From positions 1 through 6,357 of the forward strand of contig JAJRTK010000318.1 of assembly GCA_024278345.1 (NCBI GenBank): a stretch of 6,357 nucleotides of DNA, written 5' to 3'. The position numbers and the translations under genes are program-made. The DNA comes from a bacterium (lineage in GTDB: Bacteria; CSSED10-310; JAJRTK01). Below the pieces are notes generated by a model, which worked only from the letters and a program-made list of their open reading frames with translations, was not told the origin of the DNA and did no database searches. Within the stretch, counting starts at the first letter, position 1, and the number at the start of each line of letters is the position of its first letter. Of this stretch, positions 2 to 6,357 are shown in pieces.

Positions 2-2512
2 AAGGTGGACAACCCCCGGCATCATCCAGCGCTTTGCGCGCTTCTGGATTCCTCGAAGAAAGCGGCACGTTTGGCGGCGGGCCAGGTCTTGAAGAAGATT
101 GGCGGCCGCGCCATCTTGCACGCGCTGGGCGAGAAGATCAAGGAACCGGCATTCCAGAACCGGATCGAGGCCATCGATCTTGTGATGTCCATTGCCGGCG
201 CCCAGGGGGCGCCCATCATCGGGATCGTCTTGCAGATTGGCAATCCCAGGGAAAAGGTCAAGGCGCTGAAGTTCCTCGGTGACCCTGACACCATGGAGAG
301 GGCGCTTGCCACCGCGCTCCGTGCGATTTTGCCGGCCCTTGAGGATCCGAGCGAGCAAGTCATCGTCCAGGCCATCGAATCGTTTGGCAATCTGTGTAAC
401 GAGCACGAATACTTTGACTATTTGTCCAAGTTTCTCCGGGCCTCGAACCTCAGCTTCGTCAGGGTTGCCGCTCGCGGCTTGAGGCGCTTCCATTCCAGCG
501 CCGTCATGGCGGAGTTGAGCCGCTTGCTACGGGTGGGGCCCTCCGACATTCGAATGGAGGTCCTCGACACTCTGGAAAGGATCGGCCGCGACGAGGTCTT
601 GCCGCTCCTTGTCAAGGCCCTGGCCCACAAGCAGGTCGTCGTTCGAAGCCGCGCCAGCGAAGCGCTCTCAAGGCTTAGCCGGGCAGGGAAGATCAGTGCC
701 ATTTCGGTCATTTTGTGGCTTCTTCGGAGTCCGGACGTCAACATCCGGCGCATGGCCGTGGAGGTCGCTCAATCGATCCAAGACCAGGAAGCGCAGCTTT
801 GGCCGAAGCTGTTGCGGTTTTTGCGGGACGAAGACTGGTGGGTGAGAGAGCGGATGGTGGACGCGCTCCTGGAGATGGCGGGCATGCAGCTTACGCCTTT
901 CATGGTGGGTTTTTTGTCCGATTCCAGTGACGTGCTTCGGCGGTTTGCCATCGATGTGATGAACCGTCTGAAGGATCCAAGAGCCATGGGGGCTTTGGTC
1001 AATGCCGCGCAGAAAGACGAAGACTGGTGGGTGCGGGAAAAAGCTATCGACGCCTTGGCCTGTCTTGGGGACAAGAAGGTTGTCCCCTATATTATTGACC
1101 TCATGCACAACCAGCTCGAGCTCCAGCTCGTCTGCATCCAGGCGTTGGTTCGCCTCGAAGCCCGCTCATCGGCACGCTACATCGCGGCCCTGCTTTCATC
1201 CGGTGACCCGGATGTCCGGATCGAGGCCGTCCGTGCCTTGGAAGCGTTTGAAGCCAAGGATTTTGTCGGCCAGCTCAAGCAGCTTCTTCTGGATCCCAAC
1301 GCCAAGATCGTCCGGGCGGTCCGCCACTTGCTGCAGCGATGGGATATCAAGGAAATCTCGGACCTCGGCCTCACGGGCAGCCAATTCTATTCGCCGCTGG
1401 ACCAGGGGCTTTTGGCCTTGGAAAAGGCTGGAGGCGACGATCTGATTCTGGGGCCGGGCCGCATGCCCTACATGAAGAAATTGGGAAAGGTCATGCCCCT
1501 TTCTCAGAAGGTCTTGCCAGCCGAGCAGGTTTGGGCGATGCTGGCACCGCTCCTTTCTCCTTTTCAGAAAGAGAAGCTCGAGTCCTTAAAGGACGTGGAC
1601 ATGGCCTACCACATCAAGGGGGAGGATCTGCGTTTTCGGGTGAACATTTTTCACCAAGAAGGCGGTTTGGGCGCGGTCTTCCGGATCATTCGCAACCGGG
1701 TTCCCAATCTTGAAAATCTCGGGCTCCCCGAAGTCGTGGAGCGCTTCGCGGACCTCAAGGATGGCCTGATCCTCGTGGGCGGGCCTACGGGATCGGGAAA
1801 ATCGACGACCTTGGCCGCCATCATTGATTCCATCAATCGCAACTCTTCCCGCCACATCGTCTCGCTGGAAGATCCCATCGAGGTGGTCCATGCCACCAAG
1901 AAAAGCTTGGTGAATCAGCGGGAGGTAGGGACGCACACGAGCTCTTTCACCGCCGCGCTCCGCTCCACTTTGCGGCAAGATCCGGATGTGATCCTGGTGG
2001 GGGAGCTCAGGGATATCGACACCATCGAATTTACCGTTCGTGCCGCCGACACGGGCCACCTGGTCTTCGGCACCGTGCATACAGTGTCGGCCCACGCCAC
2101 CGTTGATCGCCTGATCAACGTCTTTCCTCCGGACGAGCACGGCCAGATCCGTTCTTCGTTGGCCAACAGCCTCCGGGCTGTCGTCTGCCAATACCTCATC
2201 AAGCGGATCGATGATCCGGGCCGAATCCTCTCCACTGAAGTCATGCTGAATAATCTGGCGATCTCGAACCTGCTTCGGAAGGGCAAAACCTTCCAAATAC
2301 CCTCTCTCATCGCCCTTGCCCGAGAGGAGGGGATGCAGCTTATGGACCACGAGTTGATGCGCCTTTATCAAGAGGGGAAGATCTCCATAGAAGAGGCCTT
2401 TATGAAGGCAAACGACAAAAAGGCCTTCGACCAGGTGATGGGGGACGACAAAGAGAAGAAGGAGGGAGGCGCTGAAACTTCCCCCGGCGGGGAAGCGCTG
2501 CCGCGAAGTTGA
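2..2512 (+). CDS. HEAT-repeat / PilT-like type IV pilus ATPase fusion protein (5' partial)
   Basis: Residues are numbered from the GTG codon at 5. The frame is open to the left edge and the first residues fall inside a helical repeat, so the true start probably lies upstream. Residues 1 to about 447 are HEAT/PBS-lyase-type helical repeats of roughly 31-32 residues, two of them carrying the same DEDWWVRE motif (275-282 and 338-345). A PilT-type N-terminal domain follows (about 460-570), with GDDLIL at 477-482 where PilT proteins usually have SDLHL. The RecA-like motor has Walker A GPTGSGKS (593-600), Asp box LEDPIE (621-626), Walker B DPDVILVGELRD (659-670, predicted catalytic E667) and a His box with H685 and H692. 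All the main nucleotide-binding motifs are present, so it should hydrolyse ATP. The PilT AIRNLIR motif reads AISNLLR (752-758). The last 35 residues are charged and probably disordered. PilT ATPases normally have about 350 residues and power pilus retraction at the inner membrane; the HEAT arm is extra and probably binds a partner. PilT-family assignment is firm; PilT versus PilU role is open. Confidence 0.93.
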   Translation, partial: KVDNPRHHPALCALLDSSKKAARLAAGQVLKKIGGRAILHALGEKIKEPAFQNRIEAIDLVMSIAGAQGAPIIGIVLQIGNPREKVKALKFLGDPDTMERALATALRAILPALEDPSEQVIVQAIESFGNLCNEHEYFDYLSKFLRASNLSFVRVAARGLRRFHSSAVMAELSRLLRVGPSDIRMEVLDTLERIGRDEVLPLLVKALAHKQVVVRSRASEALSRLSRAGKISAISVILWLLRSPDVNIRRMAVEVAQSIQDQEAQLWPKLLRFLRDEDWWVRERMVDALLEMAGMQLTPFMVGFLSDSSDVLRRFAIDVMNRLKDPRAMGALVNAAQKDEDWWVREKAIDALACLGDKKVVPYIIDLMHNQLELQLVCIQALVRLEARSSARYIAALLSSGDPDVRIEAVRALEAFEAKDFVGQLKQLLLDPNAKIVRAVRHLLQRWDIKEISDLGLTGSQFYSPLDQGLLALEKAGGDDLILGPGRMPYMKKLGKVMPLSQKVLPAEQVWAMLAPLLSPFQKEKLESLKDVDMAYHIKGEDLRFRVNIFHQEGGLGAVFRIIRNRVPNLENLGLPEVVERFADLKDGLILVGGPTGSGKSTTLAAIIDSINRNSSRHIVSLEDPIEVVHATKKSLVNQREVGTHTSSFTAALRSTLRQDPDVILVGELRDIDTIEFTVRAADTGHLVFGTVHTVSAHATVDRLINVFPPDEHGQIRSSLANSLRAVVCQYLIKRIDDPGRILSTEVMLNNLAISNLLRKGKTFQIPSLIALAREEGMQLMDHELMRLYQEGKISIEEAFMKANDKKAFDQVMGDDKEKKEGGAETSPGGEALPRS

Positions 2513-2786
2513 GACACCGTGGAGACAAAGCCTTCCTTCCCGTGGCGGCTCCCCGTTTTTTGGGGGTGCTCCGGCCTTGGGGTAGTGGATCGAGAGCGGC
2601 GATCATGGCGAACAGCGGGTGTCGGACGGCGCCGGATGGGAGCGGGACGTAACACGAAAAAAAACAAAGGGTCTGCTAAAGAGTATGTCCTGGACGAAGA
2701 GCACGGTTCGTTTTCTTGGGGCCATTCGTCCAGGTGGGGATCGTGAGTAGACAAAGCCAACCTATAGAGTGGATGTGGGAATCCAG
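2513..2786. other. Intergenic region between the two ATPase genes
   Basis: No convincing gene lies here. A GTG-started open frame at 2519-2746 has no Shine-Dalgarno, an arginine/tryptophan-rich composition and no recognisable motif. The stretch holds a weak C4/G4 hairpin with a T-rich loop (about 2548-2569), an A-rich run near 2657-2664 and a perfect 10-bp inverted repeat (2689-2734). I could not pick a credible -35/-10 promoter. Its size leaves room for a separate promoter for the second ATPase gene and the kinase, in contrast with the 4-base gap between those two. Confidence 0.6.
2689..2734. repeat. Perfect 10-bp inverted repeat upstream of the second ATPase gene
   Basis: The arm CCTGGACGAA at 2689-2698 is the exact reverse complement of TTCGTCCAGG at 2725-2734, with 26 bases between. 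The right arm ends about 52 bases before the chosen ATG. No T-run follows on the + strand, so a simple terminator is unlikely. It could be a structured 5' leader or a split operator; which of these cannot be told from the sequence. Confidence 0.55.
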
Positions 2787-3866
2787 ATGGCCAGACTCGA
2801 TTCATTCCTTCGGCTCGTGGTGGAGCAGCGGGCGAGCGATCTACATTTTCATGCGGGAAATGTGCCGTTGATCCGCCATCACGGGGATCTGATGAGGCTA
2901 CCGTTTCGCGAGCTCTCTGATACCGAGGCGGAACGCTTTATTTTGGAGGTGTTGACCAAGGAGCAGAGGGCGGAGTTTGAAAGAGAGCAGAATCTCGATT
3001 TCCTTTACGCCGTCCAAGGCGTAGGCCGGTTCAGGGCCAATGTCTTCGTGCAAAACCACGGAGCGAGTGCCGTCTTTCGTGTCATTCCCAGTCGCTTGCC
3101 CAGTATGGAGGAGCTCAGGCTGCCTGGCTCCGTCAAGAAACTGACGACGCAGGGGAACGGCTTGATCTTGGTGACCGGACCCACCGGGGCCGGCAAAACA
3201 ACGACTTTGGCCGCCATCATCCATGAGATCAACAGGACTTCCAGCCGCCACATCATCACCATCGAAGATCCCATCGAGTTCGTCCATACGCCCCTCCAAA
3301 GTACGGTCACCCAGAGGCAGGTGGGCAAGCATACGGAGAGTTTCGTTGCCGGCTTGCGGTCGGCGTTGCGCGAGGCACCGGATGTGCTCATGGTGGGCGA
3401 GCTCCGGGATGCCGAAACTATTTCCCTGGCCATCAATGCGGCGGAGACAGGCGTCTTGGTTTTCGCGACCCTCCACACAAACTCGGCCACGGCTGCCATC
3501 GACAGGATCATCGATGCCCTGCCCGATGCCCATCGGGCACAGATGAGAAGCGCCCTGGCGGTCTTGCTCCAGGGGGTTGTGGCCCAGAGGCTCTGCAAGA
3601 GGGCGGATGGCGACGGCCGCCTTGCCGCCATCGAGATTCTTCTCCGGAACTGGACCGTTTCCCATCTGATCCGCGAGAGCAAAATCCACCAGCTCGAAGG
3701 CTATCTCTCTTCCGCGAATTACGAATCTACCGGCATGCAGAGTCTTGATAGCTGCCTTGTGGGGTACGTCAAGGATGGCCTGCTCACATTGGAGGAGGCG
3801 CGGAAGGCATCCAGCGATCCAGAGCACCTTGACCATGTTTGCTCGGACGTGCAACAGGAGGAGTGA
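2787..3866 (+). CDS. PilT/PilU-family type IV pilus retraction ATPase
   Basis: A 359-residue hexameric-motor ATPase of the PilT family, expected to drive pilus depolymerisation at the cytoplasmic face of the inner membrane. The N-terminus has the ASDLHFHAG signature, near-identical to the ASDLH of PilT. Motifs in order: Walker A GPTGAGKT (131-138), Asp box IEDPIE (159-164), Walker B PDVLMVGELRD (198-208, predicted catalytic E205) and His box GVLVFATLHTNSA (222-234, H230). The C-terminal motif that is AIRNLIRE in PilT reads TVSHLIRE (290-297), followed by the typical GMQSLD region. I chose ATG 2787 because GGGA lies six bases upstream and the protein then begins just ahead of SDLH, as PilT does. 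GTG at 2769 and 2775 are alternatives that add six or four residues. It lies downstream of a HEAT-fused paralogue and four bases before a kinase gene, so it is probably co-transcribed with the latter. Degeneration of the AIRNLIRE motif leaves PilT-like and PilU-like roles both possible, so no symbol is assigned. Confidence 0.95.
   Translation: MARLDSFLRLVVEQRASDLHFHAGNVPLIRHHGDLMRLPFRELSDTEAERFILEVLTKEQRAEFEREQNLDFLYAVQGVGRFRANVFVQNHGASAVFRVIPSRLPSMEELRLPGSVKKLTTQGNGLILVTGPTGAGKTTTLAAIIHEINRTSSRHIITIEDPIEFVHTPLQSTVTQRQVGKHTESFVAGLRSALREAPDVLMVGELRDAETISLAINAAETGVLVFATLHTNSATAAIDRIIDALPDAHRAQMRSALAVLLQGVVAQRLCKRADGDGRLAAIEILLRNWTVSHLIRESKIHQLEGYLSSANYESTGMQSLDSCLVGYVKDGLLTLEEARKASSDPEHLDHVCSDVQQEE
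3856..3863 (+). promoter_or_regulatory. Strong Shine-Dalgarno setting the kinase start
   Basis: AGGAGGAG ends seven bases before ATG 3871 and lies inside the last codons of the upstream ATPase, whose TGA is at 3864-3866. It fixes the kinase start at 3871 rather than at the in-frame ATG 3745, which would overlap the ATPase gene. It also suggests translational coupling of the two genes. Confidence 0.85.
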
Positions 3867-3870
3867 CCTC

Positions 3871-6087
3871 ATGGGGTCCCAGAGTCGAGATGAATTGCTG
3901 GCCAAGGCTCGCCTTCTGGAGGGGCGCGGAGATTATGAGGCAGCGTCACGGATCTACTTGAAGAGCGGCGAACCCATGCGTGCCGCCCGCGCATTGGCCG
4001 TTCGGGGCCGGTACGAGCAAGCGGGCCGGATCTTGCTAGCCTCTCTCGACGCCCAGCAGGGAACCGTCGATCTCCTTGACGGCGACGGACGCAAGCGTGC
4101 TTCATTGGCAGCTTCCTATTTGGCGCGGGCCGGTGACACCGCCACAGCCGTGGATTTGCTCGTGGCTCTTGGAGATTGCCGCGGAGCCGCCGATCTCTTG
4201 GACACCGCCGGCGACCACGAGGCGGCGGAGCTCTTGCGTTCAGAACGGTCCGGGCTGCGCCGCGCCAGCCTTGCGGACGCGTTGAAGCACCGGCAGGCTC
4301 AGGAGCTCGAACGGGCCGGGAAGCTCCAAGATGCAGCCGAGATCTATCTTGAGATCCGAGTACATGCCGAGGCGGCGCGCCTTTTCAAGAGACTGGGCCG
4401 AACCTTGGATGCGGCGAAGGCGTTTGCCACGGCTCGGATGCCTTTCAAGGCGGCCCTCTGTTACGTTGAAATCGGCGATCTCACCAATGCCCAGGAAAAC
4501 CTCGTCTGGGTGCCGAAAACTGACCCACAGTACCGTGCCGCCGCCATGCTCGGCATTCGGACCGCCAGCGAAATGGGGTCCTTGAGCTTCCAGCTCGAGC
4601 ACTTCCTTCAGGAGTTCCTCCAGGCTGCTCCCGCGGAGCCCAGGGAACTGGAGAGCCTTTATCTGCTGAGCAAGCTCTACGAGAAAAGCGATTTACTGGA
4701 GAATGCCAAAGAGGTCTTGCGGAATATCCTGGACTCGGTTCCGCGCTATCGTGACGCTTTGGAACGGCTCCAACGCCTGGAAGAACAGACCCAACTGGGG
4801 AACGACTTCAAGCCGCGATCCCCCCAAGACGCGGCACGGCGAAAGAAGCAACGGATCGATTCCGCCTTCTCGGGCCTTCTGGAATTGCCGCCCCTGCCGG
4901 AGATGCCGGAGATGCCGATTCTTCCAGATCTGGAGGATGGCGCCGTGGTGGCCGTTCAAACGCCAGCGGCTGAAAGGGCTTCGGTGCCCATGGAAGACAT
5001 CGACTCCTTGCATGAATCGGCGGAGCCCGACGATCTCACGGTGACGGCGGGACCCAACATGGCCACGGGTTCTCCATCATCTTCCAGCGATGGCCCCAGT
5101 GCCATGCCAGGGGATCGAGAGGGGCGGAGCCTTTCGACGACGGCCACCGGGCTGTACGATGGAGACCGGGAGAGCCCTCCAGGGAGGCCATCTCCGGTGG
5201 AGCCGAGCCGTGCCAAAAAGTTCGAGCCGTGCCAGGGGGCCATCGTCAATGAGAGATACCGAATCGATGCCGAGATCGGCCGCGGCGGGATGGCGACGGT
5301 CTTTCGGGCTACCGACCTGATGCTGGACGAAGAGATCGCCCTCAAGGTTTTTTCCATGCCCGAAGGCGACCCCAAGATGCTCTCAGAGACCCTCGCCCGC
5401 TGGAAACAGGAGCTCAAGCTCTGCCGGAAGCTGCAACACCCCAACGTCGTTCGCCTTTATGATATCGGGGTCTACCAGGACGTGCGATACATCAGCATGG
5501 AGCTTCTTGAGGGGAAGAGTCTTGGCGATATCCTCACGGCATCCCTCATTCCCATGGATCCGGGGCTTGACTGCCTGATCCAGGTCTGCGCCGGGCTTCA
5601 GGTCGCCCATGACAATGGCGTGATTCACCGGGACATCAAACCCGACAACCTCTTCGTCACGAAAGAAGGCCGGGTCAAGGTCATGGATTTTGGCATCGCC
5701 AAGGGGCGTAACGCCAGCCATCACACCACCGAAGGCCTCATGTACGGCACGCCGCGCTACATCTCCCCAGAACAGATTCGCGGCTTCAGCGACGTCACCC
5801 CAGCCGCCGATCAATATAGCCTTGGTGTGGTGGCCTACCGAATGTTCACGGGCATCGTTCCCTTCCGCCACAAGGAACAATTGCCGGTACTCATGATGCA
5901 CTTGCAGGAGCCGCCCCGTCCGCCTCGGGAGCTTTCCCCTGAAATACCGGACCTCCTGGAGCGGGTCATTTTGCGGATGCTGGAAAAGGAGCCCGACAAA
6001 CGTTTTTCAAGCTGCCGCGAAGTGGCCCAGGAATTGGCGCAGATTCGGAAATTTCTGGGGGGAAAGGGAAAACCCCAAGGGGCGTAA
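3871..6087 (+). CDS. Soluble Hanks-type Ser/Thr protein kinase with N-terminal TPR-like domain
   Basis: A 738-residue protein predicted to phosphorylate Ser/Thr on partner proteins in the cytoplasm; I see no signal peptide or membrane helix. Residues about 5-305 are alpha-helical, alanine-rich TPR-like units with G-D/R-Y/L-x-x-A-A patterns, suited to protein binding. Residues about 310-455 are a low-complexity Pro/Ser/Asp-rich linker with a PEMPEMP run near 343-349. The kinase domain (about 463-731) is complete: glycine loop GRGGMATV (470-477), ATP-binding K492 in IALKV, likely alpha-C glutamate E514, catalytic loop HRDIKPDN (586-593), DFG (606-608), a Thr-bearing activation segment with GTPRYISPE ending at E634, and D647. 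HRD makes it an RD kinase, which usually needs activation-loop phosphorylation. Most bacterial kinases of this class put the kinase domain first and often add a membrane anchor and sensor; here the order is reversed. Context suggests pilus components as substrates, but this is inferred from gene order only. Confidence 0.95.
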   Translation: MGSQSRDELLAKARLLEGRGDYEAASRIYLKSGEPMRAARALAVRGRYEQAGRILLASLDAQQGTVDLLDGDGRKRASLAASYLARAGDTATAVDLLVALGDCRGAADLLDTAGDHEAAELLRSERSGLRRASLADALKHRQAQELERAGKLQDAAEIYLEIRVHAEAARLFKRLGRTLDAAKAFATARMPFKAALCYVEIGDLTNAQENLVWVPKTDPQYRAAAMLGIRTASEMGSLSFQLEHFLQEFLQAAPAEPRELESLYLLSKLYEKSDLLENAKEVLRNILDSVPRYRDALERLQRLEEQTQLGNDFKPRSPQDAARRKKQRIDSAFSGLLELPPLPEMPEMPILPDLEDGAVVAVQTPAAERASVPMEDIDSLHESAEPDDLTVTAGPNMATGSPSSSSDGPSAMPGDREGRSLSTTATGLYDGDRESPPGRPSPVEPSRAKKFEPCQGAIVNERYRIDAEIGRGGMATVFRATDLMLDEEIALKVFSMPEGDPKMLSETLARWKQELKLCRKLQHPNVVRLYDIGVYQDVRYISMELLEGKSLGDILTASLIPMDPGLDCLIQVCAGLQVAHDNGVIHRDIKPDNLFVTKEGRVKVMDFGIAKGRNASHHTTEGLMYGTPRYISPEQIRGFSDVTPAADQYSLGVVAYRMFTGIVPFRHKEQLPVLMMHLQEPPRPPRELSPEIPDLLERVILRMLEKEPDKRFSSCREVAQELAQIRKFLGGKGKPQGA

Positions 6088-6118
6088 CCAGGGCAAAGCG
6101 CCTTCTTTTCCTTGGGTT
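6071..6118. terminator. Candidate terminator hairpin overlapping the kinase stop codon
   Basis: AACCCCAAGG (6071-6080) pairs with CCTTGGGTT (6110-6118), nine base pairs with one bulged C. Inside the loop GGCG (6081-6084) pairs with CGCC (6099-6102), and that inner hairpin is followed by TTCTTTT (6103-6109). On the opposite strand the outer stem runs into TTTTCCC. The inner and outer stems can form together, but the U-tract is imperfect, so this is a plausible and possibly bidirectional terminator, not a certain one. Confidence 0.4.
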
Positions 6119-6179
6119 GTGTTCCGCTCCCGTCGTCGTCCATCCGGCCGCCGCCACTCGCCTTTTAAGGGGACATCTC

Positions 6180-6197
6180 CGCCGGCAGATACCGGTG
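6180..6197. repeat. Degenerate copy of hairpin repeat
   Basis: CGCCGG (6180-6185) pairs with CCGGTG (6192-6197), including one G-T wobble, around a 6-base loop. With one gap it lines up with the hairpin at 6296-6314: both have the order CCGGCA, GAT, CCGGTG. It therefore looks like a diverged copy in the same orientation. Confidence 0.5.
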
Positions 6198-6295
6198 TCG
6201 CGGGACTGGTTTTCCAGGGACCTATCAGATCCGGTTGACAAGTCCACGCACGAAAGGAACCCACCGTTCAATTCCGTGAATCCCGTCCAGCCCGC

Positions 6296-6314
6296 CACCG
6301 GCAAGATGCCGGTG
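6296..6314. repeat. Perfect hairpin repeat (GTGILPV-type dispersed repeat)
   Basis: CACCGGCA (6296-6303) and TGCCGGTG (6307-6314) form a perfect 8-bp stem with loop AGA. The minus-strand reading through it gives GTGILPV and the plus-strand reading gives ATGKMPVPP, both peptides I associate with a dispersed intergenic palindromic repeat rather than a real protein. It is not followed by a T-run, so it is unlikely to be a terminator. Confidence 0.6.
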
Positions 6315-6357
6315 CCACCAGGGCGGCGCCGCGGAGTGTAAAGCAAAAACGCGGGGA

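Follow-up and report, generated by a model that had tools for sequence, protein, structure and literature searches.

Two PilT-family ATPases, one of them fused to a long HEAT-repeat solenoid, and a soluble TPR-Ser/Thr kinase form a three-gene set that, judged by gene order and phylogeny, amounts to a genuine module conserved in two or three phyla, because its synteny, its co-inheritance and the placement of most of its kinases in one clade agree. Pilus retraction is the role of PilT-family ATPases, and we propose that the trio encodes a specialised type IV pilus motor with the TPR-kinase as its docked phospho-regulator, a reading to which we assign a probability of about 0.5. A more specific version is more tentative, namely that HEAT-PilT and PilT form a hetero-complex set by the co-encoded, TPR-docked Hanks kinase, and that the cassette has been both inherited and moved between phyla. 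The first-pass annotation of this DNA had suggested an undescribed, phospho-controlled pilus retraction module. The conserved module stands, and no description of the trio appeared in the open-access papers covered, those on PilT with HEAT repeats, Ser/Thr kinases or TPRs (subscription papers and preprints fell mostly outside this scope); the phospho-control part is weakened by loci in which a TPR protein lacks the kinase domain.

The window, meaning the whole stretch of DNA analysed (6357 bases), is the entire contig G000:C245 of a 6.06-Mb metagenome-assembled genome from the candidate phylum CSSED10-310. Its three open reading frames share the + strand (Table 1). The PilT frame opens at a GTG at position 2769, and the downstream ATG given in the table agrees with the starts of relatives. 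Exactly four bases (3867-3870) lie between the PilT stop and the kinase ATG, and open reading frames and domain matches both agree with the arrangement first noted from the sequence, two PilT-family ATPases and a soluble kinase in the same direction. The HEAT-PilT gene as first delimited was borne out in its domains but is incomplete: its start codon and ~100 further residues are supplied by contig G000:C86, which overlaps the window contig by 300 bp with 3 mismatches and carries a phosphoglucomutase-family gene upstream of that start.

Table 1. Features of the window.
Feature	Position	Strand	Description
HEAT-PilT	2..2512	+	~450-residue HEAT solenoid, C-terminal PilT-family ATPase; 5' end missing
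Dispersed repeat	2552..2705	.	within the HEAT-PilT/PilT gap
PilT-family ATPase, companion paralogue	2787..3866	+	TIGR01420 4.4e-125; PDB 3jvu 1.7e-92; own tree clade
Soluble TPR-Ser/Thr (Hanks-type) kinase	3871..6087	+	PF00069 4e-48; TPR profile vs PDB 5e-26

The apparent shared operon is plausible for PilT and the kinase, the only tightly spaced pair in this genome, but less so for HEAT-PilT, which ends 256-274 bp before PilT, whereas in most relatives the two ATPase genes overlap or almost touch. Beyond this gap, the genome contains 39 or more further copies of the dispersed repeat, most of them 110-145 bp long and 76-86% identical, and an insertion seems to have opened the operon in the window. 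Since the repeat splits the two genes, co-transcription of HEAT-PilT with PilT in the window is uncertain; promoter and terminator scans returned nothing above chance. The 3' tail (6088-6357) is also repeat-bearing, with 141 bp matching contig C400 at 98%. The likeness of the window genes to Myxococcota versions raised the question of whether a Myxococcota contig had contaminated the bin, which was ruled out by tetranucleotide correlation (r up to 0.94 with contigs of its own genome vs. 0.44-0.79 with Myxococcota loci), by the fit of its GC content to its own genome and by the host-type dispersed repeats that the contig carries.

Elsewhere the genome encodes a canonical pilB-pilT-pilC-pilS-pilR set and numerous T2SSE-family ATPases (22 matches). 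The trio itself has no linked gene for a pilin, PilC or PilQ. The genome is also kinase-rich; a strict-pattern protein scan of the genome contigs with the kinase gave no match. One further locus of the same genome (L138, 7713-9584) encodes a PilT-family ATPase with N-terminal cyclic-nucleotide-binding and MshEN domains, an architecture that suggests a nucleotide-controlled pilus motor.

Both ATPases proved to be PilT-family proteins, one with HEAT repeats, as first read. Against TIGR01420 (PilT/PilU family type 4a pilus ATPase), they score 407.6 and 417.5 bits, far above the curated cut-off of 319.1 bits; the E-value of HEAT-PilT is 4.3e-122, and its repeats match PF13646 (E 5.6e-41). HEAT-PilT and its companion carry, respectively, a Walker A motif (GPTGSGKS/GPTGAGKT), a Walker B motif with the catalytic Glu (DVILVGELRD/DVLMVGELRD) and a His box (TVHT/TLHT). 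Among sequences long enough for the test, Walker A is present in 53/53 HEAT-PilT and 51/51 PilT proteins, and apparent Walker B exceptions, where inspected, retain the catalytic Glu. Where an AIRNLIRE-like motif was recognised, it mostly ends in K in HEAT-PilT and mostly in E in the companion PilT. Built from four sequences, the AF2 model of this HEAT-PilT fragment (mean pLDDT 75.5) predicts a paired-helix solenoid that runs to about residue 446 and leads into a PilT fold, with Geobacter PilT4 and Pseudomonas aeruginosa PilT and PilU as the best PDB matches. For the companion, the best match among solved structures is PilT, with PilU (1e-73) and GspE weaker. Together, the two proteins would presumably drive pilus retraction.

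The third protein comprises a TPR solenoid (~aa 1-310), a Pro/Ser-rich linker (~310-455) and a kinase domain (~458-730). Beside the kinase match, it has a TPR-like region matching PF23774 (E 1.4e-9). A TPR profile built from 33 orthologues finds, among PDB structures, designed TPR proteins (5.2e-26) and IFT140 (1.9e-12), the match to intraflagellar-transport TPR proteins being confined to the N-terminal part. No membrane segment was detected in the protein (highest 19-residue Kyte-Doolittle mean 1.24), which together with the PF00069 and TPR matches bears out the earlier description of a soluble kinase with its own solenoid. Across the 34 trio kinases aligned, the VAIK Lys (K), the alphaC Glu (E), HRD, N, DFG and the PE of an APE-type motif do not vary, by which these proteins are assigned to the Hanks type; at 290 bits, against the 450 required, and with no membrane segment, the protein falls outside the PknB/Stk1 PASTA kinases. 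The single-sequence AF2 model of the protein is poor (mean pLDDT 42) and was used for residues 1-124 only, where helix pairs are predicted at residues 6-124.

Conservation of the gene order is evidence for the module. Among 47 full-length HEAT-PilT loci with readable flanks (loci cut by contig ends excluded, and some from the same genome or close relatives, therefore not independent events), the TPR-kinase directly follows PilT in 40. By comparison, in none of 78 ordinary PilT loci from other bacteria do the next 3.5 kb downstream contain a same-strand kinase gene, so gene set, order and strand distinguish the trio from controls as expected of a conserved operon. The kinase start mostly lies -4 to +9 bp from the PilT stop, and the genes usually overlap or stand within 10 bp. 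Absence of the kinase beside these ATPases in relatives, which the first-pass annotation had named as refuting its proposal, is thus clearly contradicted, and the gene-neighbourhood search that it had called for found the order kept in many Myxococcota genomes as well as in four genera of CSSED10-310. The synteny and the control loci also speak against the idea that the genes are neighbours by chance in a kinase-rich genome, which was rejected.

Within CSSED10-310 (eight genomes), the four genera with the trio and readable flanks are represented by L111, L098, L099 and L101; in a fifth (L103) the contig ends inside the TPR part, and the trio is absent from two genomes of other families. The phylum containing 'Myxococcales bacterium nzgw260' has 15 loci with the trio in direct order, and one more (L286) in which PilT and the TPR-kinase are adjacent and HEAT-PilT lies ~2 kb further on. 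The phylum containing 'Myxococcota bacterium Prado145' has the trio in 20 loci. A sample of 386 diverse genomes yielded full-length HEAT-PilT in CSSED10-310 and in just one other genome, whose match coordinates equal those of a Myxococcota genome identified before. Departures from the pattern were of two kinds. Five loci of the Prado145 phylum (L141, L342, L345, L346 and L347; Myxococcota) have, as their third gene, one for a TPR protein that lacks the kinase domain; one Myxococcota locus of this form lies in a complete 10.33-Mb genome. Two others, L336 and L348, have neither TPR protein nor kinase after PilT. At L348 (9478-11913), a REC-GAF-PAS-GGDEF protein occupies the place where the TPR-kinase would stand.

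An ATPase-domain tree resolved two clades, one per position in the trio, and because both also hold tandem plain PilT pairs, the tandem pair is probably older than the HEAT fusion. In the kinase tree, a single well-supported clade takes in 34/38 trio kinases and the kinase of L010, which has no HEAT-PilT beside it. The kinase partner may have arisen more than once, since the CSSED10-310 kinases of L098, L099 and L101 form a separate clade (its placement ambiguous in the tree) and that of L339 is an outlier. A lone kinase without TPR or HEAT-PilT neighbour (L361, 10484-11512, genome G035) lies inside the trio kinase clade. Distance matrices of the three proteins co-vary (Mantel correlations of 0.90 for kinase and PilT, 0.85 for kinase and HEAT-PilT, and 0.90 for PilT and HEAT-PilT), as plain vertical co-inheritance would produce too. 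Compared with the Myxococcota locus L321, the window genes reach 52% (HEAT-PilT), 68% (PilT) and 57% (kinase), each the nearest or nearly so, vs. 28-31%, 49-50% and 41-42% within their own phylum. Because all three are closer to one Myxococcota version than to their own phylum, the simplest reading of these comparisons is that the module was transferred, or deeply retained, as a unit.

Known systems share parts of this arrangement. Like the PilT/PilU pairs of type IVa pili in Pseudomonas and Neisseria, the trio has two tandem PilT-family ATPases with Walker A, the Walker B Glu, a His box and an AIRNLIRE-like C-terminal motif; unlike them, it has a 450-residue HEAT solenoid on one paralogue and a TPR-kinase as third member, and its two ATPase clades lie apart from the PilT and PilU sequences included in the tree. 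Also comparable are short-HEAT PilT pairs (type II) of CSSED10-310 and Myxococcota, in which HEAT-PilT likewise precedes a companion PilT and whose aligned CSSED10-310 copies share a DWWVR signature; in contrast to the trio, none has a downstream kinase, and some lack the catalytic Glu. A second, kinase-free HEAT-PilT and PilT pair was seen at L104, L106, L107, L108 and L351-L360. The HEAT-PilT proteins of L106-L108 (CSSED10-310) have lost the Walker B Glu and may for this reason be inactive ATPases. An HD-REC-DUF4388 protein adjoins kinase-free pairs in CSSED10-310 (L104, 8193-9917; L106, 7149-8888), and near another such pair a single chain holds two PilT domains (L358, 9472-11694).

On the regulatory side, Synechocystis SpkA and other Ser/Thr kinases affect type IV pilus motility, and pilin phosphorylation has been reported (PMC7076178). 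By analogy, the trio kinase, also of Hanks type, may be tied to pilus motility, apparently differing in the position of its gene next to dedicated PilT paralogues, in its solubility and in its TPRs. SgmX of Myxococcus xanthus, a TPR protein that activates type IVa pili (PMC7668184), offers a parallel for the putative regulatory role of the TPR part, although it consists of TPRs only and acts with MglA at the pole. A review of myxobacterial pili mentions extra PilT proteins, with no HEAT or TPR (PMC6060248).

We hypothesize that HEAT-PilT and PilT are distinct paralogues which act together, in addition to the ordinary PilB-PilT-PilC set of the genome. The cytosolic TPR-kinase would use its TPR solenoid to dock either on this pair, where the HEAT solenoid or the PilT hexamer is the probable site, or on the pilus base. 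It would phosphorylate the pair or its immediate partners, so that motor activity is tuned or gated. Docking, the phosphorylation target, retraction as opposed to another pilus function and the direction of control are all points that we infer. Gene identity, gene order, tight spacing in relatives, intact catalytic motifs and co-inheritance as a unit support the motor with its docked phospho-regulator; the five TPR-only loci, the two with neither TPR protein nor kinase, the lack of linked pilus genes and the repeat in the window gap count against it.

At five Myxococcota loci the TPR protein is present and its kinase domain is absent, through loss or because it was never acquired, so phosphorylation is not essential everywhere. 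According to the main rival, what the ATPase pair needs is the TPR part, as a scaffold or polar adaptor working in the manner of SgmX (itself a TPR-only pilus regulator; PMC7668184); the kinase would be an addition, with targets that may be found elsewhere. This arrangement fits five to six Myxococcota loci, including the one in the complete genome, and the N-terminus of the kinase-less TPR protein aligns with that of the kinase form, the C-terminal repeats being alike by eye. Yet the kinase domain and all its catalytic residues are kept in the 34 aligned orthologues across two or three phyla, a conservation otherwise hard to explain, which argues for selection on catalysis within the module. 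The scaffold explanation is less likely than the motor with its docked phospho-regulator. Signal flow in the reverse direction, in which pilus load or contact would be sensed by the ATPases, which would then switch on the kinase towards unrelated targets, is improbable: PilT has been proposed to take part in Pseudomonas surface sensing (titles cited in PMC11656802), the genome is rich in kinases and the third place at L348 holds the REC-GAF-PAS-GGDEF protein, but the neighbourhood of the trio showed no conserved effector gene. Less probable still is that the ATPases serve a non-retraction type IV filament or secretion function (e.g. predation or adhesion) under the control of the kinase, since both score far above the PilT/PilU cut-off and the nearest solved structure of the companion is PilT, ahead of PilU and GspE, even though the genome has many T2SSE-family matches, an ordinary PilT already sits in its pilB-pilC cluster and the trio is unlinked to pilin genes.

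Kinases that affect pilus motility are known; their targets are mostly unclear. In the module proposed here, dozens of genomes retain a kinase next to the motor proteins that are its presumed targets, which makes the question directly testable. The natural variants with a TPR protein and no kinase provide a ready comparison, and a cultured myxobacterium apparently has one of them.
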